Shown here one piece after another: positions 606-41,694 of a DNA stretch of 47,248 nucleotides (position 1 is the stretch's first letter; every line of letters begins with the position of its first letter). The notes beneath the pieces were generated by a model. That model had not been told where the DNA came from. It was given only the letters and a program-made list of their open reading frames with translations, and did no database searches. Position numbers and translations under genes: made by a program. This DNA is from Zetaproteobacteria bacterium CG_4_9_14_3_um_filter_49_83. Lineage in GTDB: Bacteria; Pseudomonadota; Zetaproteobacteria; Mariprofundales; Mariprofundaceae. The stretch spans positions 1 to 47,248 of the forward strand of contig PFXG01000070.1 of the NCBI GenBank assembly GCA_002791545.1, read 5' to 3'.

Positions 606-1751
606 CTATTTTATTTTCATCTTTAATAGCAGGCTGAACGATGGATTGCCTCCGGCACTTGCGCCGTTAAATACGCCGTTGGGGTTGATGCGAACCCCTG
701 TTACGTTGGCATCATATCCGGCTACATCCGGAATCGGCAGATAGGTGAAGGGTGCGACCCCGCCTGCTGTGCTGGAGTAGGTTACGGCGGTGCCATAGGT
801 GTAGGTCAGCCCGCAGACGGGAATGGCGCTGCAGGAGAATGTTACCGGTGGATTGCTGCATAGGGTTGAGACGCACAGACTCATATTGGCAGGAATCTGA
901 TCTGTAATCACGGTTGTATTGTTGTCGGCAACGCCATAGCCGCTGTTGGTTGCGGTCATGGTGTACAACATCTCTGATTCGGGTATGGCCTTGGGATTGA
1001 TGGTGGCGTTGACCGGATCGGAAAAGGCAGCCACCGATTTGGCAATGGTGAGGATCGGCGAGAGTGTCACGGCGTTGGTATCCAGCGTCACTGCACCATT
1101 AAGTGCCTGAACCCTTCCAGATACATTTGCACCGGTCGTCAGGGTAATGCTGGTGAATGCGAGGATATTTCCGGCAAAGCTCGTGGTGGTACCGAGTGTC
1201 GCCGAGCTGCCGACCTGCCAGAACACATTGCTATACTGAGCGCCATTAATCAAAACGACAGAGGCTCCGGCCCCGGTGATCAGTGTGCTGCCGATTTTGA
1301 AGACCCAGACGGCATTGGGGTTGCCTCCGGCATCAAGCGTGAGTAACCCGGTATTGGCCAGTGACGATGAATAGCAATAGACAGCCGGTGTGAGCGTTTG
1401 CGCTGCCAGATCTGTCACACCAAGGGGGCCGAAATCGCATGCCTGTGCTACGAGCGCATTGTATGCGGTGGTGGCGTCCGTCTGCGCCGTTGCCGCAGTG
1501 GCCGTTGCTGCGTGTATCGTGCCGCTGACACTGCCCGGAGGAAATCCGGTGATCGCTGCACCCGGCGAGTTACCCACATCTCCGGTAATGACGCTGGCAC
1601 CGGTATTGGTCACTGTCGTCGCACCGAGCACGGCGAAGCTGCCCGCAACGCCCAGTGGCGGCACGCTTCCCACGGCCATGGCACTGCCGCCCCAGTTGGT
1701 TAGTCCGGTCAGCAATATCGGCAGCAGCCATAGTCTGATGATTTTTCGCAT
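606..1751 (-). CDS. DUF3494 ice-binding-like protein with DUF11-like C-terminal part
   Basis: Secreted protein of about 381 residues. The chosen ATG is preceded by GGAGGGTGAAGCC; an in-frame ATG 22 codons upstream lacks a good site. A signal peptide (MRKIIRLWLLPILLTGL...) is followed by a typical DUF3494 fold: LGVAGSFAVLGATTVTNTG, SVITGDVGNSPG, a central VWVFKIGSTLITGAGASV and NVFWQVGSSATLGTTTSFAG. This is the beta-solenoid family that contains microbial ice-binding proteins but also many adhesion-like members. After the solenoid comes a DUF11-like segment (AKSVAAFSDPVNATINPKA, TMTATNSGYG). It is the last gene of the minus-strand DUF11 cluster, 62 bp after the giant barrel gene. Ice binding itself is not shown; adhesion is an equally fair guess. 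Confidence 0.85.
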   Translation of the reverse strand: MRKIIRLWLLPILLTGLTNWGGSAMAVGSVPPLGVAGSFAVLGATTVTNTGASVITGDVGNSPGAAITGFPPGSVSGTIHAATATAATAQTDATTAYNALVAQACDFGPLGVTDLAAQTLTPAVYCYSSSLANTGLLTLDAGGNPNAVWVFKIGSTLITGAGASVVLINGAQYSNVFWQVGSSATLGTTTSFAGNILAFTSITLTTGANVSGRVQALNGAVTLDTNAVTLSPILTIAKSVAAFSDPVNATINPKAIPESEMLYTMTATNSGYGVADNNTTVITDQIPANMSLCVSTLCSNPPVTFSCSAIPVCGLTYTYGTAVTYSSTAGGVAPFTYLPIPDVAGYDANVTGVRINPNGVFNGASAGGNPSFSLLLKMKIK

Positions 1752-1813
1752 GGCTTCACCCTCCGTGAAATGACGATTGGCAGCACCTGCTGTTGTTTCC
1801 ATGCTGATCCTGT

Positions 1814-4800
1814 TCATTGTTCATTATCCATCAGGCGATTCATTGCACTGCCCTTGTTCAAGCCGAAGGTATCCTGATCCACCTTCATGCGCAGGGTGAC
1901 AAACGGGCCACGGGCACGGTAGGCGGCGGCGGTGAAGTCGCGATCATTCAGGCCGCGCAGGTTGTAGCCCACCGACAGCCAGCTGTTTTCCAGCACGTTG
2001 TAGCCGATCGATGCGCCCAGGCTGTAGCTACGCACGCCGGAATTGAGTGAGCGCATCAACGAGCCGAATGTGCCCACGTCCCAATCCTGCGTTACATCGT
2101 AGCGAATTTCGGTGCCGATCAGGTCAGTATAACCTTTGTAGTCGGTGCCGTCGATGCTATCGCGCACATATTTCGCGCCGTATTGCAGCGCGATCTGGGT
2201 GTGGCGGTTCGGCATGTAGTTGGCGTTAAGATTATTCACCAGCTTTGCCCCGTTGATCGACAGGCCGGCAGCCTGACTGAATTGGGTGATGTAATCGGCA
2301 CGGTCGAACCATACCCACTGGCTGTCGTTCGGGCGGTGGGCATAGGAGAGGCGCAGATCGCTGCTGTTGCTGGTGGTGCCCGCACCGCTGGCATGGCGCA
2401 GGGTGACACCGGCGGCCATGGCGCGCCCTTCATCGAGGTTGCGCTGCATGCCCAGTTGCAAATTCCTTTGCTGATCGATACTGGCATTACGAAATTCAAC
2501 GCGTCCGTTGCCGCTCCACAGCTTGTCGTGGTAGGCCACGCCGAGTGCGGTGGCGGTATAATCGCCGGAGGTTGAGGGCAGGCCCGAGAGACCGCCGGAA
2601 CCGGAGGGCAACGGGGTGTTGAGGTTGAGCGGCGCGGCGTTGTTGCGCAGGGTCTGGCTGCGGTCGATGCTGAAATCGGCCTGCCATTGTGCGTTGACCT
2701 GCCAGCGTTGCACCAGGCCGAGATTGCTATATAAACGTTCGGCATCGTTGTTGATGCTGTTGCCGACTGAAGCCGACATTTCGCCGCCGCTCCAGGGTTG
2801 GGTTCGTAGCCCGGCGCGGGTGGTGTTGGCGGTGAGCTGCTGGCCGCGTGCAAATTCCTGTTCGGCGAACAGTTTGGTCAGTTCGGTCACTTTATAGTCG
2901 GCACCAAAAATCAGGCGATCCGGCATGGTGGCGCTGCCCGCCCTGCCATAGCCGACTTCGGCTGCGCCATGCAGGCCGAGTTTTTTGTCCGGCATGGTGT
3001 AGGCCGCTCCGGCGAGAAGCTGGTTGCTCTGTGTGTTGCCAGCAGCGTTCTGATCTTGCGCCGTGCGGGCGCCGTAATAGGCGTTGAGATCATCGCTTAA
3101 TTTTTGATCTACACGGCCTTCGATCAGGTTGTTGCTGGCGTTGGTGGTCAGATTCTCCTGTTTAAACGCCTGCCCTTGCAGTTGCAGACTGTCGGTAAGT
3201 TTCCGGCGGCCATCCACCCCCATTTTGCGCGTCGATCCTTCCGAGGCCGCCTGCTGCCCCATGCCAAAGCCGTCACCCTGCTGGCGCACATAGGCCCTGG
3301 TATCCCACTGATCTTCACGATGGGTAATTTCGCCCAGCCAGGCACTACCGCCGGAGGCGATACCGGCGCGATTGCCGTTGCTTCTGGCCGCTTCAGCACG
3401 CAATTTGGTCTTATCGTCGGCTTGATAGCTGGCATCCACGCCTCGCAGGTTGCCGGTCGCGCCCACGGTGCCCTCGTGTATCAGGGTTGCGCCGATCTCC
3501 GTTGCCTTGTCCGGCTTAAAGCTGCTGCGGCCGCCGAAGGTGGCTTTTTTGTCGGCGGGATCGGCCGATTCATATTCGACGACGATATAGGTCGGGTTGA
3601 AGTTGCCATCGCGGCTCATCATCGGTTGGTGGAAGGTCAGCGTGCCCAGCGCGTAGTCGATGTCGTAATCCAGATAACGGGTCAGATTTTGAGTGCTGAC
3701 GATGGTTTGCGACTGGAAGCGGTCGCGGCTTTCCACGCGGATTTTGTCGGAGTTGATCACCAGATTACCGCGTGAGAGTTTGTAGATGCCGGAAGTGCCG
3801 TTGCCGGGAATCTCATCCTTGACGTAGGCCTGAGCGGTGACGCTGGCAAACGCATTGTAGCCGACCTTCTCGCCTCGGTATTCGCTCTTCACGCCGTTCA
3901 CGGTGCGGCTGTAGCGGGATAGTTCGGTGACGCTCAGTCCGGTGTCGTAGTCGCCGAACATGGCATAGAACTGCTTGCGCTCCAGCTTGACGTACAAACG
4001 GCTGGCGGAAGCGGCATCGAAACGAGCCTGGGTGGCATCGGCGTAGAGCGTGTAGTATTGGGTGGGGTCAACGGCCTGTTTAAGCAACGGGTTGCCGGTT
4101 TGTTTGGTGGTGTCGTAGGCGGCAGTTAACAGGTAGTCGCCCCGGATGCTGCCCTTGGCGTAGAGCGCCAGTTTGTTGTCGTCGAACAGTTGCCTTTCAG
4201 TGTCGGCGGCCTGAAGTGCCTGCAAGTTGCCGGACAGGGTTTTATGGCCTGCAGTCCCTTCGGCAAAACCGACCAGAATCCAGTCGCGTTGCCCCGCTTG
4301 CAGCCAGGCGCGTACCTCCTGCGTGCGTTGGTCGTTGAATGGGAAATTCAGAATCGCTTCACCCGATTGCGTGGTCGGCTCCAGTTCGATCATCGCCAGC
4401 CCATCGCTGTTGATCTCAAAGCGCGGCTTGCCATTAATTCGTCCAGTCAGCGGTTCACCATCGATGGCCTCGCGGCGATCATAGGCACGATAGGGTTCAT
4501 TCAACTGGAATTCGCCGCTGATGCCGCGCCGTACCGGCACGCCGTTTTTATCGAGGAAGCGCACGGCAATCATCGGGCGAGTCTTGCCATCGGCAATCAA
4601 ATGTGATTGTTGCGGCATAAATTCGACATGATCCGGTGTCGCGGCGTAATAGATGCTACGCATCGTGCGGCTGATCTCCTGGCCTGCCGCATCGATAACC
4701 ACCAGTTGGACGCTATTGGCCCCCTCTTTTAACGGCACGGCGTTCCAGCTGCTGAGCGCGATACTGCGTGCCGCATTCATTTTCGCGCCATCGAAGAGCA

Positions 4801-7072
4801 AGGGGTTCACCGTTACACCGTTGACACTCAACACCAGTTTCTGTTGCGGATTGTGCTTCACCGCCACCTTCATCACCGGCAGGTTGGGATGGAAACTCTC
4901 CTGTGGATGCAGCCATTCGTTGCCGGGCAGCGCTGATGCCAGCCACGCTTCGTCGTAAGGCAGTTTTTCCAGCAAACGGGCCGGATCGTTATTTGGTGAT
5001 GTGGTAGCAGGCGGGGTGGCAGCAGCTTTAACGGGTACTTTGGTGGATGTTCTCTCGCTGGCACTTCTCTTTTGCACGTGGAAATCGGCGCGCCACAAAC
5101 TGCCGCCGCGCAGGTTGACGAATTGTGAATAGCTGCGTCCGGCAAAACGGCTGTTCTGCTCGCAGGCGAGCACTTCGTAATCCTCGGGCAGGGCATCCGG
5201 ATCGAGCTGCACCACATGGGTTCCGGGACGCAGATTGTCGATGTGCCAGCGGCCATTGCTGTCTGTTAACACATAGCTGCCGTCCTGCAACACCACGCGC
5301 GCATTGGCCACCCCTTTGGCATCGTTATCCACCTTGTCATCGCACGAACCGTCGATGACGCGGCCGATCAGAATGGCCTTGTTGCGATATAGATCTTCGC
5401 GCACCAGCACGCTGGCGCGGGCGGTGTTGGAGATAAAGAGACCGGTGGCAGCGGCGCTGTTTTCCGCCATGCCGGGGCGTGCGCCGGGGGTGACTTCCAG
5501 CACATAGCGCAGGGTGACCAGCGCGGCAGGTGCGATGTTCAGCGTGAAGGTGATCATGCTCGCATCCGGCGCAACCAGAGGATCGGCCGTGACCGCGCCA
5601 TTGAGCCGTGCCGAACCTTTCTGATAGCGGAAGCCGGGCGGCAGATGATCGGCAATCGATGCGCCGGTCAACGCCACAGCGGCGCTGTTATTGGTGATGC
5701 TCAGGCTATAGGGCACAAACTCGCCGGTGCCAACCACGGCTTTACCGGCGGTTTTCCGGATGGTGATCGCAAGCGAGCCGGGGTCTGCCGGAATATCCAA
5801 TCGCAATATCGTCCCCAACAATGCGAACACACCGCCATACGAAGCGCCCGGTGGCAGCCCCGGACTGCCGATGATGCTCGGCACAACCGCTGGCGTGCCG
5901 ACAGAAGCAGGCAGGTTCGCTGGCAGAACGGCCGAGGGGAAGGCGTATCCCTGCGGTGGTAACACGCTGAGTTTGTAGTTGCCTGCCGCCGCTTGCGGAA
6001 AGCGGAAACCGCCCGCCGTCATCGCAGCATCACAAATCGTCGCTGAGCCGCTGCTTACAGGCTGTGGTAACACAGTCACACCATCGTCGCAGAATACCAA
6101 AGTTGGCTGATTGGTTACCGCATCAATCAGGCTCACTGCTGCGCCGTTGACCGGAGCGCCGGACATAGAGTCGAAGACGATTCCGAGCGGATCGATCAGC
6201 GCACTGCTGTAGCTGATGATCGCTGCACCGCCGGGGGTACAACTGGGGTGACTGTAGCTGCCGGTGATGTTCTCGTTGTAGGCCGAGGTGGTGAGAATAC
6301 CATCATGGGGTGTTGGTACGGTGCCGAGCGCAGTAAATTGTGATGGTAGTACGCCCACGAACACCCCCGTGGAAGGACCGGTTTCGCTTAGTTGCAGCAC
6401 TTCGATGTCGCCGCCTTTGCTCGTGGACAGGGTCACCGACACCCGGTCGACAGCGGCGGTGGTATTCGCGTCTAAGCTCAGCACGCGGACAAATATCGGC
6501 TCATTGCGCGCGTAGGCGGCAATCGGCTTATTCGCCGCATCGTTCATCGGCGCGAGCAGCAGATTGGATGGCAGCGGCGTAGCTGCCGGGTTACCGGGCA
6601 GGGTTGGCTGAGCCAGCAGAATAAAAGGTCCGGCGAGCGCACCGCCCGGTGCATAACCGCCGGGCTGCACCATCTCGATTTGGCTGCCGGTGGGTGCCAG
6701 AGCTACATTTGCAGGCGGGATGTATTGCAACAGTTCAATTTTGAGGTTGACGTCGATACACGCGGCGGTGTTCACCGCCGCCGAGGCGTTTGCGGTTAAA
6801 TTGTTTGGGCCGACACTGCAGCTGGCGTTGGCGATGTTGGTGATCGTTGTATTTGCCGGGGTTGCCGCCCAGACGGCAGACGAGAGCAGGCAGAAGGCAG
6901 ATGCTAGCAGCCACTGGCTGAGTGCAGAGAGCGAAGATGTGTTATATCTGTCCCCGGATACGCCTTTTGCTGCGCACATGGAATGCGCAGGAAAAGACGG
7001 GCTGACCTTGCGGCCAGCCTGTCTAAACATCCCCGAGCTCAGGGATGGGCTGATTGTCAGGCAATCGAGCAC
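1814..7072 (-). CDS. Giant DUF11 / carboxypeptidase-regulatory-like outer-membrane barrel protein
   Basis: Up to 1752 residues. The first in-frame start is GTG with AAGGA upstream; ATG starts at codons 15 and 32 are alternatives because the hydrophobic signal (WLLASAFCLLSSAVWA) only begins near residue 54. Order of parts: a DUF11-like N-terminal segment; a Cna-B-like segment (SGAPVNGAAVSLIDA); a DUF11 domain (ITIRKTAGKAVVGTGEFVPY, ADHLPPGFRYQKGSARLNG); a second Cna-B/SdrD-like domain (GRVIDGSCDDKVDNDAKGVA, GSYVLTDSNGRWHIDNLRPG); a Thr/Pro-rich linker; an Ig-like region; then roughly half the protein as alternating amphipathic strands typical of an outer-membrane barrel (LYAKGSIRGDYLLTAAYD, GPFVTLRMKVDQDTF near the C-terminus). 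Probable role: an outer-membrane anchor or export partner for the neighbouring DUF11 proteins. That role is inference from context. Confidence 0.75.
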   Translation of the reverse strand: MLDCLTISPSLSSGMFRQAGRKVSPSFPAHSMCAAKGVSGDRYNTSSLSALSQWLLASAFCLLSSAVWAATPANTTITNIANASCSVGPNNLTANASAAVNTAACIDVNLKIELLQYIPPANVALAPTGSQIEMVQPGGYAPGGALAGPFILLAQPTLPGNPAATPLPSNLLLAPMNDAANKPIAAYARNEPIFVRVLSLDANTTAAVDRVSVTLSTSKGGDIEVLQLSETGPSTGVFVGVLPSQFTALGTVPTPHDGILTTSAYNENITGSYSHPSCTPGGAAIISYSSALIDPLGIVFDSMSGAPVNGAAVSLIDAVTNQPTLVFCDDGVTVLPQPVSSGSATICDAAMTAGGFRFPQAAAGNYKLSVLPPQGYAFPSAVLPANLPASVGTPAVVPSIIGSPGLPPGASYGGVFALLGTILRLDIPADPGSLAITIRKTAGKAVVGTGEFVPYSLSITNNSAAVALTGASIADHLPPGFRYQKGSARLNGAVTADPLVAPDASMITFTLNIAPAALVTLRYVLEVTPGARPGMAENSAAATGLFISNTARASVLVREDLYRNKAILIGRVIDGSCDDKVDNDAKGVANARVVLQDGSYVLTDSNGRWHIDNLRPGTHVVQLDPDALPEDYEVLACEQNSRFAGRSYSQFVNLRGGSLWRADFHVQKRSASERTSTKVPVKAAATPPATTSPNNDPARLLEKLPYDEAWLASALPGNEWLHPQESFHPNLPVMKVAVKHNPQQKLVLSVNGVTVNPLLFDGAKMNAARSIALSSWNAVPLKEGANSVQLVVIDAAGQEISRTMRSIYYAATPDHVEFMPQQSHLIADGKTRPMIAVRFLDKNGVPVRRGISGEFQLNEPYRAYDRREAIDGEPLTGRINGKPRFEINSDGLAMIELEPTTQSGEAILNFPFNDQRTQEVRAWLQAGQRDWILVGFAEGTAGHKTLSGNLQALQAADTERQLFDDNKLALYAKGSIRGDYLLTAAYDTTKQTGNPLLKQAVDPTQYYTLYADATQARFDAASASRLYVKLERKQFYAMFGDYDTGLSVTELSRYSRTVNGVKSEYRGEKVGYNAFASVTAQAYVKDEIPGNGTSGIYKLSRGNLVINSDKIRVESRDRFQSQTIVSTQNLTRYLDYDIDYALGTLTFHQPMMSRDGNFNPTYIVVEYESADPADKKATFGGRSSFKPDKATEIGATLIHEGTVGATGNLRGVDASYQADDKTKLRAEAARSNGNRAGIASGGSAWLGEITHREDQWDTRAYVRQQGDGFGMGQQAASEGSTRKMGVDGRRKLTDSLQLQGQAFKQENLTTNASNNLIEGRVDQKLSDDLNAYYGARTAQDQNAAGNTQSNQLLAGAAYTMPDKKLGLHGAAEVGYGRAGSATMPDRLIFGADYKVTELTKLFAEQEFARGQQLTANTTRAGLRTQPWSGGEMSASVGNSINNDAERLYSNLGLVQRWQVNAQWQADFSIDRSQTLRNNAAPLNLNTPLPSGSGGLSGLPSTSGDYTATALGVAYHDKLWSGNGRVEFRNASIDQQRNLQLGMQRNLDEGRAMAAGVTLRHASGAGTTSNSSDLRLSYAHRPNDSQWVWFDRADYITQFSQAAGLSINGAKLVNNLNANYMPNRHTQIALQYGAKYVRDSIDGTDYKGYTDLIGTEIRYDVTQDWDVGTFGSLMRSLNSGVRSYSLGASIGYNVLENSWLSVGYNLRGLNDRDFTAAAYRARGPFVTLRMKVDQDTFGLNKGSAMNRLMDNEQ

Positions 7073-7087
7073 GGTTTTTCCCGATCC

Positions 7088-8299
7088 TTACTGTACGAAC
7101 ACGTTGAAATAAACCGTGACGTAGTCGCCCGCAGCCAGCGATGGGTTGACAACACCGTACGATGTGCTGGCCAGGGTATTGTAAAGTATGGTCACCACCT
7201 GTCCGGCGGACGTTGCACCGGCTGTGGTTGCATCAGCTGCCACGCCGAGCACACCGGGGCCAACTCCGACACCCCTGACTGCACCGAATCCTGAGGCGGA
7301 AAGTGAATTCGCCACATTACCCGAAACGCAGTTAGCGGCTGGCAAGGCACCGCTATTGAGCGTTGGATCAATCAGCAGTGCAGCATTCAGGGTATCGCTC
7401 AATGATGTCAGCGTAGCAGGTCCCGCTCCGATGTTCGCCACCGTAATAGCATAACGCACCGCTGCTCCGGGGATCTGCTTCGGATTAACGTTGCCATTGG
7501 CCGGGTCGCAAATAGGCGTGACGGTCTTGGCGACCATCAATGTTCCCGAGACCACCTGATAGGTTGTTCGATCCGAATGATTGGCACTTAACACCAGATC
7601 ATCCGTTCCCGCGACAGTATCGGCAAACACCACATCGACACCTGCCGTGTTGGCAACGGTGTTGACCAGTGCCGCACCCTGCGCACCCACGCCACCACCT
7701 GCCAGTGCTGTTGCCAGCAGGTTGACGATAGAGATATCGGTGTTGACCTGTGTCACGGGAACCGTCGAGAGTACGGTCACGGTGACTGAGGCACCGGGCG
7801 CCAACTCATCGATGTATTGTAATTCACCCACATCGAGGATGCCGTTGGCATTGGTATCAACGAACGCGACCAGACCGGTTCCGTTAAAGTTGTCGGTGTT
7901 GGCACCCAATACGGTGCCGGTAATATTGTTCGCCAGCGCCAGTGAGAAATCCTGCACCGTATTACCCAGATTGGTTACAACAAACGTGCTGACTCCGCCA
8001 ACCTGGCCGGGTGTCATCGAGGTAACACCGCCGCCCACCACGGACAGATTCACTTTGTTATCGACTAAAAACGTTGTGGCTGTGCCGGGGCCAGCGGTAT
8101 TGCCAGCCAGTGAAGAGCCAATGTCGGTTTGTGCCACACCACCGACTGAGTAAGCTAACGTGGCACTGTTGGAGATCAGGGTGCCTGAAGCCGTGCCAAC
8201 CGCTTGCGCGCTTTGTGAGACAAGGCCCAGCAACGCCGCGCAGGACAACAGTGCAATGAGCTTGTGGGGGCTTCCCTTATTCGCATGATAATTTTTCAT
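7088..8299 (-). CDS. DUF11-type secreted repeat protein
   Basis: About 403 residues. The start chosen is the ATG preceded by AAAGGAGAATCAAA; the open frame extends 36 codons further upstream without a ribosome site. The N-terminal signal (LIALLSCAALLGLVSQSAQA) precedes a mature protein beginning VGTASGTLISNSATLAYSVG. Several beta-sandwich segments follow with the family signatures of surface DUF11 proteins (NLGNTVQDFSLALANN, LAPGASVTVTVLSTVPVTQ, NGNVNPKQIPGAAVRYAITV, ANIGAGPATLTSLSDTL). The phrase NPKQIPGA recurs as NPKAIPES in the DUF3494 protein, so the cluster members share domain stock. The ORF ends 16 bp before the start of the giant barrel gene, suggesting co-expression. Likely exported to the cell surface; no enzymatic motif seen. 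Confidence 0.8.
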   Translation of the reverse strand: MKNYHANKGSPHKLIALLSCAALLGLVSQSAQAVGTASGTLISNSATLAYSVGGVAQTDIGSSLAGNTAGPGTATTFLVDNKVNLSVVGGGVTSMTPGQVGGVSTFVVTNLGNTVQDFSLALANNITGTVLGANTDNFNGTGLVAFVDTNANGILDVGELQYIDELAPGASVTVTVLSTVPVTQVNTDISIVNLLATALAGGGVGAQGAALVNTVANTAGVDVVFADTVAGTDDLVLSANHSDRTTYQVVSGTLMVAKTVTPICDPANGNVNPKQIPGAAVRYAITVANIGAGPATLTSLSDTLNAALLIDPTLNSGALPAANCVSGNVANSLSASGFGAVRGVGVGPGVLGVAADATTAGATSAGQVVTILYNTLASTSYGVVNPSLAAGDYVTVYFNVFVQ

Positions 8300-8375
8300 T
8301 TTGATTCTCCTTTTTAATAAAGTGCTGATACAAATGACGACCTGTTGTAAAAAAATATCGGTCTGCTTGATATGT

Positions 8376-8498
8376 TCATCCGGGCCTTTCCCTGATCGGC
8401 GGGCCATGGCCGGAAAGCGGCAAAGGAATCCAGAGCGGATTGGTCATCGATTCGGGCATCAGAAAACGCCCTTGATTATTTGATAATGAAAGGTTCAT
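8376..8498 (-). CDS. Small 40-residue ORF between two DUF11 genes
   Basis: The 210-bp gap between the two flanking genes is largely filled by this open frame, which starts with ATG behind GCGAGGCTGACC and stops 77 bp before the next gene start. The product begins MNLSLSNNQGRFLMPES and ends in a Pro/Gly/Arg-rich tail (GHGPPIRERPG). It has no signal peptide, membrane segment or recognisable domain. The ribosome site and operon position argue for translation; lack of any homologue known to me argues for caution. It could be a leader peptide or chance. Confidence 0.35.
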   Translation of the reverse strand: MNLSLSNNQGRFLMPESMTNPLWIPLPLSGHGPPIRERPG

Positions 8499-8509
8499 GG
8501 TCAGCCTCG

Positions 8510-9007
8510 CTATTTGATTACTGCGCGGAAACCGACCTCGCCGGATTTCCCGGCGCTCAGTTGACCTTTGTAGGTCCAGCGGATATTGGTATATTCACTG
8601 GCTAATGCGGTGCGTTCCTGACCTTGCGCATCCCTGCGCTTCAAGGCTTCGGCATGGGCGAATTTCTTGCCGCCATCTGCCGAGAATTCGATGTCGGTCT
8701 CCTTGCCGAATGTACTGCCGCTCTTATATTCGGTGCCGGATGGAATCGGATTGTTGATGACGATATCGCTCGCCGTTTTGTCGCTGATGTTTTCGAACGT
8801 GTTGGTGAAAATCACCTCGGTGCCCGGAATGGCATTGTCGGGGGAGACGCGTTTGATTTGTTTTTTGCCATCCTTGCCAACTACGGTGACTTCGACTTCT
8901 GCCACACTTTTTACTTTGATAGCGCCATCCGCTGCCTGAACAGCCTGCGCATATCCACCCAGCAGGGTGAGCAGGATGGCGATGATCCATAAACGGGAAA
9001 TAGACAT
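8510..9007 (-). CDS. Small DUF11-family exported protein
   Basis: About 165 residues. The ATG used sits behind AAGGAGGACTCT; the frame also opens five codons earlier, but those codons are the ribosome site itself. A signal peptide (LWIIAILLTLLGGYAQAVQA) is followed by a single conserved-repeat domain with VEVTVVGKDGKKQIKRVSP, DNAIPGTEVIFTNTFENIS and NNPIPSGTEYKSGSTFGKE, which are classic features of the DUF11 'uncharacterised repeat' fold. The C-terminus (GKSGEVGFRAVIK) is a terminal beta strand very like that of the upstream gene (NVVITFRATIN). It lies 15 bp downstream of that gene and is probably cotranscribed. Likely a periplasmic or surface pilin-like subunit; function unknown. Confidence 0.8.
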   Translation of the reverse strand: MSISRLWIIAILLTLLGGYAQAVQAADGAIKVKSVAEVEVTVVGKDGKKQIKRVSPDNAIPGTEVIFTNTFENISDKTASDIVINNPIPSGTEYKSGSTFGKETDIEFSADGGKKFAHAEALKRRDAQGQERTALASEYTNIRWTYKGQLSAGKSGEVGFRAVIK

Positions 9008-9022
9008 AGAGTCCTCCTTCAA

Positions 9023-10120
9023 TCAGTTAATCGTTGCACGAAAAGTAATCACTACATTGGCCGGGGCAGCAACATTCCCCAGCGAAACAGAAACAGTTCG
9101 GGTGGCGCTGATGAGCTGCGCGTTATCGGCATCGGCCGCATCGGTTTTGACGATACCATCCACCACGATGCTACCCGGCACATAGGTGGTATCGGCAGGC
9201 AGCGGATCGACGATCACCAGATTGGTCGCAGTACCGGCGCCTGAAAGCGAAGCTACGATCTGATAAGTCAGTACAGCTCCCGGCATGACAAGCACGCCGC
9301 CTTGCAGATCGAGCACGCTGAGCACGGATTTATTCATCACAAAACCCACGCCGCTGGCGATGTAGCTGCCCGTCGTGCCCGCTTGTGCGCTTGAGCTGCC
9401 CACCACGGCGAAACCGCCACCCTGCCCCAACCCCGCCAGACTGGTGCCGGGTGGTGAACCTGCTGTACCGGGTGTTAGCGATGAAACAGTCAGCAACACA
9501 TTGCCGCCTGCATTAACGGGGAGATTGGATGGGGTATTGCTGATCAGATAAATGGTCAGGCTTGCATCTGGCGAGAGCGTGGGGTCGTTGCCGCCCGCTA
9601 TATACACCGTATCGGCATTCGCGCCGGTGGCCTGAAAACCTGCCAGCAGGCCACTCTCAACATAGATCGAGCCGATGCTGCCATCCAGCGGGGTGTAGTT
9701 TCCGGGCGGCGGAGCCGGATCGTTGGTGCGGGTCAGGCCGAATGACTCAGTGCCGTTGCCGCTATTGGTCAGCAAAAATGTCAGCACGTCATTGTTTCCC
9801 GGTGTACTTACCGCAACGGGCGCAGCATCCTGCCAGCTGAGAACAGGCTGGATAATCTCATCCACCAGAAACGAAACAATACTGCTGTTCACCGTCGACG
9901 GCGGGCCAGCGCCGATGACATAGGTTAAGGTCACCACATTGGAAATGCTGCTTCCGGCAGCCGTCCCGGCAGCCGTCCCGGCTGCCCGGCCGGATTGTGG
10001 GGCGAGCAGCAACAAGCCAATGCACAAGCCGAGCAGATATGTGCGGAAGTTGAATTTCGCGCGCTTATCACTCGCCACCGGGTTACTGTTATTTGAACAA
10101 CAAAGACTCATAAAATGCAT
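9023..10120 (-). CDS. DUF11-type secreted protein, first gene of the cluster
   Basis: About 365 residues from the ATG chosen here. A TTG three codons upstream and an ATG three codons downstream are also in frame, and none has a convincing ribosome site. A charged start is followed by a hydrophobic signal (YLLGLCIGLLLLAPQSGRA) and a short tandem repeat encoding AGTAAGTAAG. The mature protein has beta-sandwich blocks: SSISNVVTLTYVIGAG, NNDVLTFLLTNSGNGTESFG, PDASLTIYLISNTPSNLPV and a final DUF11 block (VMPGAVLTYQIVASLSGAG, DPLPADTTYVPGSIVVDG). The first and third large cluster genes share the opening logic 'GTAAGSSISN' / 'GTASGTLISN', consistent with paralogues. No catalytic motif. Confidence 0.8.
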   Translation of the reverse strand: MHFMSLCCSNNSNPVASDKRAKFNFRTYLLGLCIGLLLLAPQSGRAAGTAAGTAAGSSISNVVTLTYVIGAGPPSTVNSSIVSFLVDEIIQPVLSWQDAAPVAVSTPGNNDVLTFLLTNSGNGTESFGLTRTNDPAPPPGNYTPLDGSIGSIYVESGLLAGFQATGANADTVYIAGGNDPTLSPDASLTIYLISNTPSNLPVNAGGNVLLTVSSLTPGTAGSPPGTSLAGLGQGGGFAVVGSSSAQAGTTGSYIASGVGFVMNKSVLSVLDLQGGVLVMPGAVLTYQIVASLSGAGTATNLVIVDPLPADTTYVPGSIVVDGIVKTDAADADNAQLISATRTVSVSLGNVAAPANVVITFRATIN

Positions 10121-10413
10121 AACCGCCAACTAAAACAATGGTATCCGTTCATCTGCTCTCCCGACATTTATCCCGCAAGGCACCCCGCAAGGCAAAAGCG
10201 CGCAGTTTTTCGCTCTGGTCAAGAGCACTTTCAACACAACAGCTTAGAGCAGAAATAAATCCCGTCTGTGCGCAAGGAAACATAGGTACGGAAGCAAACG
10301 GGGTCGGATGGTTCTGTTGATGTATTTTTTTTACACAGCAGAGCCCTTCGGATGAAACATGGAAATCTCAGTTGGAGGTGTGTGCAGGGTGTAAGATATG
10401 GATTTTTTTCGTT
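10121..10413. promoter_or_regulatory. Intergenic region upstream of the DUF11 cluster
   Basis: No coding frame with a credible start was seen. This stretch must hold the promoter of the minus-strand DUF11 cluster, but I could not pick out a confident -35/-10 pair. It contains a short direct repeat (CCCGCAAGGCA twice near 10170-10195) and a 5-bp hairpin GCTCT/AGAGC near 10210-10230. The right part leads into the duplicated 57-bp leader. Confidence 0.4.
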
Positions 10414-37425: not shown

Positions 37426-40400
37426 TTATATGATCAACATCCCGTTCACACATGCCTTTGGCAGCGGGCGGGCAGGGCGGCCACGTTCGATGATGTAGGT
37501 TTCTGCCTGTTCATCCGGCTCGAATGCTGTTGAGCGTTTTTCTGTGCCGACGCGGACGGCAGCACTGGTGTTCACCGGGGCTGCGTCACGCAGGAGCTTT
37601 ACGCCTTTTTTCATCGTTACGGCGGTTAGCCCTTTGCCTTTGGCGAGAAGCGGGAACTCATCCAATTTTACGATGCCCAGACAACCATCATCGGTGATGA
37701 ATGCGATGGCATCATGGCCCGGATCAATTTCACGGATACACAGTAGTTTGGAGCCGGTCGGGAAGTTGATGAACGCCTTGCCCTTCTTGTTGGCCGTGAG
37801 CATATCCTCGCCTTTCGCTCTGAAGGCATGGCCCAGAGTGGTGACGACCATATATTCGGCATCGGGGTTGATCATAAACAGGCGTGTGGGCGCTTCATCG
37901 ATACTGAAGATGAAGTTTTTGGAGATCGGTTCACCGTTGCCACGACCGCTGGGCAGATCGGCGGCCAGCATGTTAAAGGCACGCCCGGTACGACCAATCA
38001 GCACCACGCGGCTGGTGGTGTGGCCGGCAGCATGATCGAGGATGGTGTCGCCCTCTCTGAACTTCACATTCTCCACATCAATGTTGGAGCCGCGCATGCC
38101 CTTCAGCCAGCCCGCCTTGGAGAGCACGGCAGTGACCGGTTCACGCGCCACCAGCTGCTCTTTGCTCATGATGCGCGCTCTGGCGGCATCGGGATCTACC
38201 TCGGTTCTGCGTTCGTCACCAAAGGTTTTGCGTACATGTTGCAGTTCTTTTTTGATTTTCTTCCAGCGGTGGGTGTAGTCATCGATGGTTTGCCGCAACT
38301 CAACGGCTTCGGCACTGAGTTGATTATGTTCGCCCTGCAGCTTCATCTCTTCCAGTTTGCGCAGCTGCGACAGGCGGATGGCGAGAATGGCCACCACCTG
38401 TGGATCAGAGAGCGCATATTTTTTCATGATGATCGGCTTGGGCTCATCGTTTTCGAGAATAATTTCCACAATGTCCCTGATATTCGGGTAGGCCAGCAGC
38501 AGGCCATCGAGAATATGGAGGCGTTTCTCAATCTCGGCCAGGCGAACAGTTGAGCGGGCGGTCACAATCTGTTCACGATTATTCAGGAATGAGCGAATCA
38601 TCTGATCCAGCGCGAACAGCCGTGGTAAGCGGTAGCGGTCACCATTGGGCGCAAGCACCCAATCTTCCAGCGCATAGCTGGCATATTCGATGGTCACCTG
38701 CAGGTTGGTCACCGAAAAGAGGTGTAGCATGATGTCGTGGGGATCCAGCCCCTTCGACTTCGGATAGAGGATGATGCGAATATCCGTGCCTTCGGACTCA
38801 TCACGAATATCTTCCAGCATCGGCAGCCGCTTGCGCTCAGGCAGGGTCGGATCAGAGATGCACTGCCCCATCGAGATCAGCAGCGGCGACTTCTCGATGC
38901 CGTAGGGGATCTCGGTGATTACAATCTGCCATGCGCCCCGCTCCAGCTTCTCCACATGCCATTTGGAGCGCAGCAGCATTTTGCCGCGTCCGCTGGCGTA
39001 CATCTTCTCCAGATCATCATGGCTGCCCGCAATGATGCCGCCACCGGGGAAGTCGGGTGCGGTGATGTGCTTGCGCACCGAGGCGAAATCCTGTGGCGAC
39101 TCCGCCTCTCCGGTGCGGATGCGTTTATCAGCCAGCGCGATGCAGGCTCCCATCAGCTCGGTCAGGTTATGCGGTGGAATCTCCGATTTAAAGCCGACAC
39201 CCGGATTGCCGGTGGTACCGTTCATCAGCACACTGGGGAACGGGGCAGGCAGCAACAGTGGCTCGATATCTTCGTCATCATAGTTCGGCTGGTATTCGGA
39301 TATGCCCTCCTTCAGATCGGTGGAGAGCATCGCTTCGGCAATGGGGGTCAGCCTGGCTTCGGTGTAACGCATGGCGGCCGCACTATCACCATCGATGGAG
39401 CCCCAGTTTCCCTGCGGATGGATATAGGGATAACGCATCTTCCACGGCTGCGACATACGCACCATGGCATCGTAGACGCTGGAATCACCATGGGGATGGT
39501 ATTTACCGATCACATCACCGACCACGCGTGCGGCCTTCTTGGTCGGGCCATCCGAACGCAGCTTCAGCATCTCCATCGCATACAGAATGCGTCGATGCAC
39601 CGGCTTCAGCCCATCACGCACATCGGGAATGGCGCGTCCGCCGACCACCTGCAGGCCATAACCGCGATACATCTCGCGAAACACCGTCTCAAAGGGTGCG
39701 ACTTTGTTGTTGCCCGAATCGTAGCTGTTGGGCTGGCAGAGCTCTTTCACATCCTCGGTGACATCGCACGGTTCCTCGACAGGCTCAAGATGGACGGCAT
39801 CTTCAATCTCAACGCCCATTAACAGATTCTTGCGCTGATCGGCATCATCACCCATCAGCTTGGTCATCAGCGCATCCATACGCTTGTCGCTGCGCGGCAG
39901 CACCTTCACCAACACCCTGTTCTCCGCATCCATACAGGTTTCGGCCAGTTCCGGCGGATCCATCTCACCCAGACCTTTGTAGCGGGTGTAGCTGATCTTC
40001 TTCTTTTCAGCCAGGGCCATCGCCTTCAGGCCATCCAGCTCCTCCTGATCCTGGGCGTAATGCTTCTGTTTTCCGATGGTGACGCCATACAGCGGCGGCT
40101 GCACAATGTAGACGCAGCCGGCATCGATAAGCGGTTTCATCAGGCGATAGAAGAATGTGCCGAGCAGATTCTGGATGTGCAGGCCATCCACATCGGCATC
40201 GGTCATGATGATCACCTTGCCATAGCGGCGATTGGCAGGATCGCAGACATCGCCGACACCCGAGCCAACCGCAGTCACCAGATCCGCCACCGCCTCACTG
40301 GCAATGGCATCTTCTTGATTAATACCTTCGCAGTTAAGAATCTTACCTTTGATCGGTATCACCGCCTGCGTATCCCGATTGCACGCCTGCTTGGCTGAAC

Positions 40401-41694
40401 CGCCCGCCGAATCGCCCTCGACAATGTAGATCTCTGTGCCTTCGATACCATTGAAGCGGCAATCCTGCAGCTTGCCCGGCAGGGGGGTGCGTCCGGTATA
40501 ACTTTTGCGCTCAACCTTCTTCTTTTTGCCATTCTCCAGTGCTGTACGCGCCGAAGCACGATCTATCACCATCTTCACCCATGCATCCGAGAGTTCCACA
40601 TCACGGTGCAACAGCAGCGAAGCGGCATCATGAATCACGCCGCCGACAAACTTGGTCGCCTCCCGTGAGCCCAGCTTCTGTTTGGTCTGCCCTTCAAAAC
40701 TGATATCCTTAATGTAGACCGACAGCCCCATCTGGGAATTGGCCATCACATCGGAGGGGGCGATGCGTGTGTTTTTACCAAGGGTTTTCTTCAGTTCAGG
40801 ACGCAGATCAAGATATTCACGCACCGCTTTCAGCATGCCATCGGCAAAACCCTTCTCGTGGGTGCCGCCGCGTGGTGTTGGCACCGTATTGGCATAGGAG
40901 CGAATAAAACTATCGACAGGCTCATCAAATGCGGCAAAAAACCAGTGCACCTTCTCTACATCGCCAAGCGCGCCCGAAAACTCAAACACCGGCGAGTCGG
41001 CCATGTTGGCCTCCATATACTCCGCCAATCCACGTTTAAAACAGAACCGCTCCGCCTCCAGCCCGGGTGCCTTAAAGATCACCTCAAGTCCGGGAATCAG
41101 GATCGCTTTATCCATCGCCTGCTGGCGGATTTGCTGAACGCGAAACTTTGCCTGTTCATAGATCTCGGGATCAGGTGAAAAGCGGATCGATGTACCACGC
41201 GTGCGAGGGCCGCAATCGGCCACTCGACGTAGTTTTTCAATCACACGCCCTTTTTCCAGGCGCATAAACCATTCGCCACCATCGCGCTTCACCGTGGCCT
41301 CAAGGAAGCTTGAAAGCGCATTGGTCACCGTAACACCCACACCATGCAGGCCACCAGAGACCTGATAGCTATCATGATCGAATTTGCCGCCAGCCTTATC
41401 CTGGGTGAGCACCATTTCGACGCCGCTCATGCCGGATGCCTCATCGGTCTCCACAGGAATGCCGCGCCCGTTATCGCTAATGCAGATCACATGGTCGGAT
41501 TCAATCTCAACAGTGATTCTGGAACAAAAGCCACCAATCGCCTCATCACCACAGTTATCCAGCACCTCTTGGGCGATATGGTGGCAACCGATCTCCGAAC
41601 CGATATCGGTATACATCCGTGGCCGCAGCCGGATATGCTCAATACCATCCAGATTCTTTAGTGATTTAATTCCGTACTCTGACCCTGACCCCAT
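37426..41694 (-). CDS. Single-chain topoisomerase IV: ParE fused to ParC
   Basis: 1422 residues in one uninterrupted frame, ATG behind AGGGAGCCTTC. Residues 1 to about 640 are a full ParE: GHKL ATPase with EVLDNCGDE near 43-51 and GGLHGVG near 114-120, transducer, then Toprim with [10 protein letters not shown] (426-435) and DADVDGLHI (499-507). A linker of roughly 30 residues ([20 protein letters not shown]) leads into a full ParC: [20 protein letters not shown], the [20 protein letters not shown] loop, catalytic tyrosine Y777 in [14 protein letters not shown], coiled-coil, and a C-terminal domain with [10 protein letters not shown] as in ParC and no GyrA box. Separate E. coli subunits are about 630 and 752 residues, so nothing is lost. 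It decatenates daughter chromosomes. The layout recalls eukaryotic topoisomerase II. Confidence 0.95.
   Translation of the reverse strand: [1422 protein letters not shown]

Follow-up and report, generated by a model that had tools for sequence, protein, structure and literature searches.

The window (the whole stretch of DNA analysed, 47,248 nucleotides) carries near its first end a compact cluster of five genes on the minus strand. A preliminary description had reported here five open reading frames in one direction with mostly short gaps, and all five were recovered at the same place and in the same direction. Read along the minus strand, they encode DufA, a secreted subunit of 368 amino acids (9023-10129); DufB, a secreted protein of 170 amino acids (8510-9022); DufC, a secreted subunit of 439 amino acids (7088-8407); a giant barrel protein of 1752 amino acids with an N-terminal hairpin, an Ig-like arm and a C-terminal barrel (1814-7072); and a DUF3494 ice-binding-like protein of 403 amino acids (606-1817), referred to below as the cargo. 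The names DufA, DufB and DufC are labels coined in this analysis. The intergenic gaps are 0 nt (DufA/DufB), 102 nt (DufB/DufC) and 15 nt (DufC/barrel), and the cargo gene overlaps the barrel stop by 4 nt.

Matches to the DUF11 model TIGR01451 (DUF11 proteins are described by PF01345/TIGR01451) exceeded the cut-off in DufA (E 7e-9), DufB (E 5e-9) and the barrel protein (E 7e-8). In DufC taken alone, the DUF11 match was below the cut-off; the DufC family profile aligned with DufA as a full-length paralogue (hhalign E 1e-61), and the third of the secreted DUF11 proteins announced in the preliminary description was assigned through this comparison. DufA consists of an N-terminal hairpin, an Ig-like middle domain and a C-terminal DUF11 domain; DufB is a single DUF11 domain of the cargo-tail type. 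The DUF11, Cna-B-like and barrel parts claimed for the 1752-residue protein were likewise located: a complete internal DUF11 domain at 5405-5767, a CarboxypepD_reg/SdrD_B (Cna-B-like) domain detected by Pfam at 5078-5350, and a conserved outer-membrane barrel part, recognised from predicted strands, at 1868-4297 (all on the minus strand). The cargo contains a full DUF3494 domain at 1065-1631, minus strand (PF11999, 204 bits, E 2e-60), followed by a C-terminal tail of the DUF11 type at 609-1058, minus strand. The tail had been described as DUF11-like, and profile-profile comparisons showed its homology with DufB (E 4e-14) and with the final part of DufC (E 5e-20). Large cargo proteins from other loci share their C-terminal 150 residues with the DUF3494 protein as one family (A4). 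For the terminal domains of cargo and subunits, Pfam returned DUF11 or nothing, and no T9SS sorting domain (type A or B CTD) was matched. Searches of the DufA and tail profiles against the PDB revealed no related structure; Foldseek matches of DufA were generic Ig matches (integrins, a Saf pilin complex, staphylococcal adhesins) and were rejected as a guide to its identity. DUF11 domains are widespread in bacteria and archaea, and we know of no job assigned to them.

The way in which the DUF11 domains of this cluster begin and end follows a pattern. In a complete DUF11 domain, such as the internal one of the barrel protein, which served as reference, the final element is a hairpin. DufA, DufB, DufC and the cargo each have a C-terminal DUF11 domain that breaks off before this last hairpin, with the match stopping at or before position 99 of 126 (one exception, at 116); in DufA, the domain (9026-9283, minus strand, residues 283-366 of 368) ends at Pfam position 83 of 114. 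A hairpin with the motif 'AGTxAGTxIxNxATxxY' is present at the mature N-terminus of DufA (GTAAGTAAGSSISNVVTLTY..., 9854-9979, directly after the signal peptide), DufC (GTASGTLISNSATLAY..., 8060-8197) and the barrel protein (ATPANTTITNIANAS..., 6761-6865), all on the minus strand. An HMM fitted on the N-termini of DufA/C and barrel proteins and applied at a threshold of E<0.01 matched 56/70 barrel proteins and 96/109 DufA/C proteins, 0/53 DufB proteins, 0/3 DUF3494 proteins, 2/21 giants and 0/386 other ORFs. In held-out loci, which had been left out of model building, the corresponding numbers were 14/18 for barrels, 30/35 for DufA/C, 1/21 for DufB, 3/11 for giants and 0/278 for others. By hairpin pattern, then, the barrel is of the donor type only, DufA and DufC are both donor and acceptor, and DufB and the cargo are acceptors only. 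Some barrels, and giants that replace DufA/DufC, depart from this rule.

In several large cargo proteins the two halves occur joined. In the one at locus L093, the match to the end of the DufA model runs straight on into a match to the model's N-terminal hairpin, 'IVFDVTIAAGTPAGTTIDNLATVT' (470/468, i-E 2.8e-4); the same junction was found in the large cargo of L084 (i-E 0.0044) and, weakly, in that of L071 (589/588, i-E 1.3). Because these junctions show the halves in one chain, the subunits look like tandem DUF11 repeats in which each cut falls one hairpin too soon. When the short hairpin profile was compared directly with the complete DUF11 domain of the barrel by hhalign, the result was not significant, in part because a loose regular expression had picked wrong segments, and the identification of the hairpin as the missing half of DUF11 therefore rests on pattern, position and junctions. 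Searching internal regions with the N-terminal hairpin HMM yielded a single match at E<0.1, which was unrelated, besides a few weak matches; a hairpin HMM derived from the barrel-internal DUF11 domains showed weak enrichment at N-termini. A longer regular expression with fixed SN spacing proved too rigid, and for this reason we relied on the HMM counts and the DufA-model junctions. An AlphaFold model of the DufA monomer (pLDDT 92.8) placed the N-terminal hairpin confidently inside the monomer; judging from this model, it is possible that the hairpin closes its own monomer or packs on the middle domain.

About 32 long antiparallel strands are predicted over residues 1160-1729 of the barrel protein, with shorter strands before them. 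Modelling of residues 560-1752 by AlphaFold with 76 relatives gave a pLDDT of 74.7 and a pTM of 0.62. No Pfam barrel model exceeded its cut-off against the barrel protein and its relatives, and Usher (PF00577) and SprA_N gave no match in the same set. The barrel sequence profile produced a chance match only against the PDB, which was discarded, and no solved structure is related to it by sequence. Foldseek returned giant barrels, Deinococcus SlpA, T9SS SprA and LptD, all at TM-scores of 0.23 or less; the best ordered outer-membrane fold match was Deinococcus SlpA/SDBC (8ae1). Since long strands are predicted, no sequence relative was found among solved structures and TM-scores stay at or below 0.23, the protein is, as modelled, a very large outer-membrane barrel that is left here without an assigned family. 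In many relatives an OmpA domain separates the N-terminal arm from the barrel, and in others OmpA is encoded by a gene of its own behind the barrel; the window's barrel has neither. Directly behind the DUF3494 gene, at positions 1-483 on the minus strand, lies the start of a transposase, of the IS110 type by inspection, which is cut by the contig end. As the contig ends 606 bp beyond the operon, within this transposase, an OmpA gene may have been lost or may lie at a distance. Barrel proteins of this kind are annotated merely as 'DUF11 domain-containing', 'OmpA family' or 'TonB-dependent receptor'. In 18 other genomes, the matches were confined to the N-terminal half of the barrel part; these proteins (1100-1750 aa, annotated as TonB-dependent receptor or OmpA family) look like a sister barrel family. 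One such sister barrel, in Eleftheria terrae (L145), adjoins a 2648-aa SdrD B-like protein.

The search for conserved neighbourhoods of the giant barrel that the preliminary description had called for was carried out on relatives. A scan with one genome per species identified, among the matches listed, more than 580 barrel relatives, distributed over Beta-, Gamma- and Zetaproteobacteria, former Deltaproteobacteria (Desulfobacterota) and Nitrospirota. Within the window's family, the barrel is present in 24/74 genomes, and where the contig is long enough the genes upstream of it are mostly DUF11 genes of about 160, 400 and 390 aa. Fifty-six barrels had an intact 5' end and no less than 3.5 kb of sequence upstream; of these 56, at least one adjacent same-strand DUF11 gene was found in 55, at least two in 53 and at least three in 48. 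The same arrangement recurred in the held-out loci. With an adjacent DUF11 gene in 55 of 56 cases, the clustering goes well beyond what chance would give, and barrels standing alone without DUF11 partners, which that description had named as speaking against its proposal, are not the pattern found. It is repeated as well on an Acinetobacter haemolyticus plasmid, with DUF11 genes, a 2008-aa barrel, an OmpA protein and a 978-aa DUF11 protein.

The operon has no chaperone gene as a constant member; a PapD-like chaperone was not recognised among the window's operon genes, the neighbourhood genes of relatives having been read in part. Two further genes were considered as core components and rejected, because each is limited to one clade. 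One, of about 295 aa with cyclic-nucleotide-binding domains, lies directly behind the barrel in a single zetaproteobacterial clade (L029, L033-L037, L039, L041) and is a possible regulator. The other encodes a PpiC/SurA-type periplasmic isomerase and lies upstream of DufA in a Gallionella locus (L062, 2938-3726); genes of the same size occupy the same place in L053, L056, L057 and L069.

The cargo position is variable. Most operons contain, instead of the DUF3494 protein, one large adhesin-like protein of 600-2900 aa, which follows the barrel in betaproteobacteria and precedes the trio in Geobacter-like groups. A tailed DUF3494 protein is encoded at the operon only in the window, in L050 and, on the opposite strand, in L048, three close neighbours in the barrel tree. 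Stand-alone DUF3494 proteins of the window's genome and class are lipoprotein-like and have no tail; within 7684-12165 of L127 (contig C62), the second DUF3494 gene of the window's genome encodes such a protein of 554 aa, with a gene for an OmpA-like lipoprotein further on. The DUF3494 gene beside the barrel of L079 was rejected as cargo, since its product is tailless; its position there is probably due to chance. Judged by this distribution, DUF3494 is an optional, clade-specific cargo and not a component around which the system is built. The earlier assignment of the DUF3494 protein as tip or adhesin is compatible with its tail and with the absence of a donor hairpin; the central place given to it does not hold, as it is optional within one clade.

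The tail is also found on cargo proteins encoded away from the operon, and its presence follows that of the barrel. In 60 genomes of the window's order and class, tail matches occurred in 16/18 genomes with a barrel and in 0/42 without one; some of the weak matches are the operon's own subunits, while the strong full-length ones are usually on other contigs. Across the phylum (397 genomes), the tail was present in 19/27 genomes with a full-length barrel and in 0/370 without (Fisher p ~2e-26, relatedness ignored, with a tail profile built partly from proteins beside barrels). The second tailed protein of the window's genome, on contig C13, has GEVED and laminin-G domains. In the corresponding locus (L046, 4689-8686; C13 ~109.7-113.7 kb), these domains and the cargo tail are distributed over two overlapping ORFs of 833 and 499 aa, which may be the pieces of a single cargo protein broken by a frameshift. 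Contig C30 of the same genome (L045, L128) carries a DUF11 giant, at least 2994 aa long, in which two DUF11 domains in tandem match strongly; no barrel is nearby. Together, the conserved operons and the genome-level co-occurrence of barrel and cargo tail strongly support the earlier suggestion of a dedicated system composed of the barrel and DUF11 subunits. On comparative sequence evidence, the barrel, three small secreted DUF11 proteins and an exchangeable tailed cargo make up one conserved unit. The tail also offers a sequence handle with which the putatively exported proteins of any barrel-bearing genome can be listed.

The reading that we prefer, with a probability of roughly 0.45, is that the operon encodes an outer-membrane assembly and display system, in which DUF11 subunits would polymerise into a hairpin-complemented chain, the barrel would serve as base, exit and anchor, and the cargo would be displayed at the tip, on the cell surface. 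The barrel on the one hand and the cargo and DufB on the other have unpaired halves of opposite kind; therefore, if the domain is to be complete, pairing has to take place between molecules for these proteins at least. The N-terminal hairpin of one subunit may complete the truncated C-terminal DUF11 domain of the next, joining subunits head to tail. The simplest chain would begin at the barrel (donor) as its base, continue through DufC/DufA (both) and terminate at DufB or the cargo (acceptor) as the distal end. The N-terminal arm of the barrel would lie in the periplasm, given that the OmpA domain found between arm and barrel in relatives is known to bind peptidoglycan. With the arm so placed, the chain would leave through the barrel tip first and would be held by the barrel's own hairpin, so that the barrel would serve first as the exit and in the end as the anchor, while the tip adhesin, with putative ice binding, would be the DUF3494 protein.

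A fuller version, which we advance tentatively and regard as the less probable outcome, is that this is a new Gram-negative outer-membrane machine, in which circularly permuted DUF11 subunits join by two-strand hairpin complementation and are threaded through the barrel, whose strands number more than 30 and which acts as last donor and as anchor, with any tailed cargo at the tip. If true, a very common surface domain without a known role would gain a function. The donor/acceptor grammar can be counted, and together with the conserved barrel it yields a testable proposal for DUF11 export and display in Proteobacteria, reaching from iron oxidisers and Geobacter relatives to the Acinetobacter haemolyticus plasmid.

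The tail data also fit T9SS-like export without polymerisation, in which the barrel would be a translocon that recognises the DUF11-type cargo tail, and DufA, DufB and DufC an accessory shuttle or cap. As in T9SS (SprA, CTD cargo), a giant barrel is accompanied by cargo whose genes may lie at any place in the genome and which shares a C-terminal beta-sandwich tail, here tied to the presence of the barrel; in T9SS, the substrates likewise have a C-terminal domain of the beta-sandwich type, and they use a 36-strand barrel with a PPIase partner (PMC10994853). SprA is among the giant-barrel matches of Foldseek, and a PpiC-type gene precedes some copies of the operon in Gallionella. We nevertheless consider this alternative unlikely: it leaves unexplained why DufA, DufC and even the barrel have donor-type hairpins, the barrel is related in sequence to no solved structure and matches SprA with a TM-score of ~0.2 only, and SprA_N had no match in the window's own genome, in a search whose positive control was likewise silent. 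The comparison with T9SS differs further in the host, a zetaproteobacterium and not a member of the Bacteroidota.

A static arrangement, with the barrel as a wall-tethered anchor like Deinococcus SlpA and the DUF11 proteins as a coat exported by other routes, would agree with the SlpA/SDBC fold match, with the fused or adjacent OmpA domain, and with the discussion of DUF11 proteins as archaeal S-layer or aggregation proteins (PMC10787695). In SlpA/SDBC, similarly, an N-terminal domain connects a very large barrel, formed by a single chain, to the wall, although here OmpA takes the place of SLH, no sequence match is seen, and DUF11 partners and tailed cargo are added. The barrel is, however, bigger than an anchor requires, and neither the usually single acceptor-only cargo per operon nor the donor/acceptor asymmetry is expected in a lattice, which makes a scaffold of this kind quite improbable. 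Finally, DUF11 is common and each protein alone resembles an ordinary adhesin part, yet an unconnected group of surface proteins with widespread Ig-like domains as their sole shared feature, forming no joint machine, is contradicted by the arrangement kept in 55/56 relatives across phyla and in held-out loci, and by the co-occurrence of tail and barrel (19/27 vs 0/370), and we give it hardly any credence.

By homology the proposed assembly and display system appears to be new, and its working principle resembles those of chaperone-usher pili and T9SS. A search of open-access journal papers found no description of the barrel/DUF11 system; the nearest published statements concern DUF11 in archaeal aggregation (PMC10787695) and DUF3494-DUF11 architectures in sea-ice Flavobacteriales (PMC9957290). 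Like chaperone-usher pili, the system combines an outer-membrane barrel and secreted Ig-like subunits in one operon, its subunits would be completed by the N-terminal segment of a neighbour, and its proposed tip adhesin is acceptor-only. Unlike them, it has a two-strand donor hairpin and the DUF11 fold, and its anchor would be the barrel's own N-terminus; the usher family (PF00577) had no match in the window's own genome, while an E. coli control was positive. Head-to-tail strand complementation without a dedicated chaperone is described for TasA fibres, archaeal bundling pili and cannulae, as cited in PMC11952670. The joining proposed here would be of the same kind, whereas those proteins are not DUF11 proteins and have no outer-membrane barrel. 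In ice adhesins of Marinomonas and Shewanella, Ig-like domains hold the ice-binding domain off the cell (PMC9957290); there the Ig stalk is part of the same chain, while here the stalk would consist of separate subunits and ice binding is putative.

The barrel tree bears on the origin of the window's copy. The window's barrel falls inside a Gallionellaceae clade, being 74% identical to the nearest row, and relatives from its own class branch elsewhere. The G+C content of the operon is 52-62%, compared to 43-48% in the immediate neighbours; values of 55-60% occur elsewhere in the window too. The operon has likely moved horizontally between iron oxidisers, and the window's copy was probably acquired by the zetaproteobacterium from Gallionella-like iron oxidisers. 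Elsewhere in the window, at 37426-41694 on the minus strand, ParE and ParC of topoisomerase IV are fused in one 1422-aa ORF, in which GyrB-type domains are followed by topoisomerase IV subunit A.
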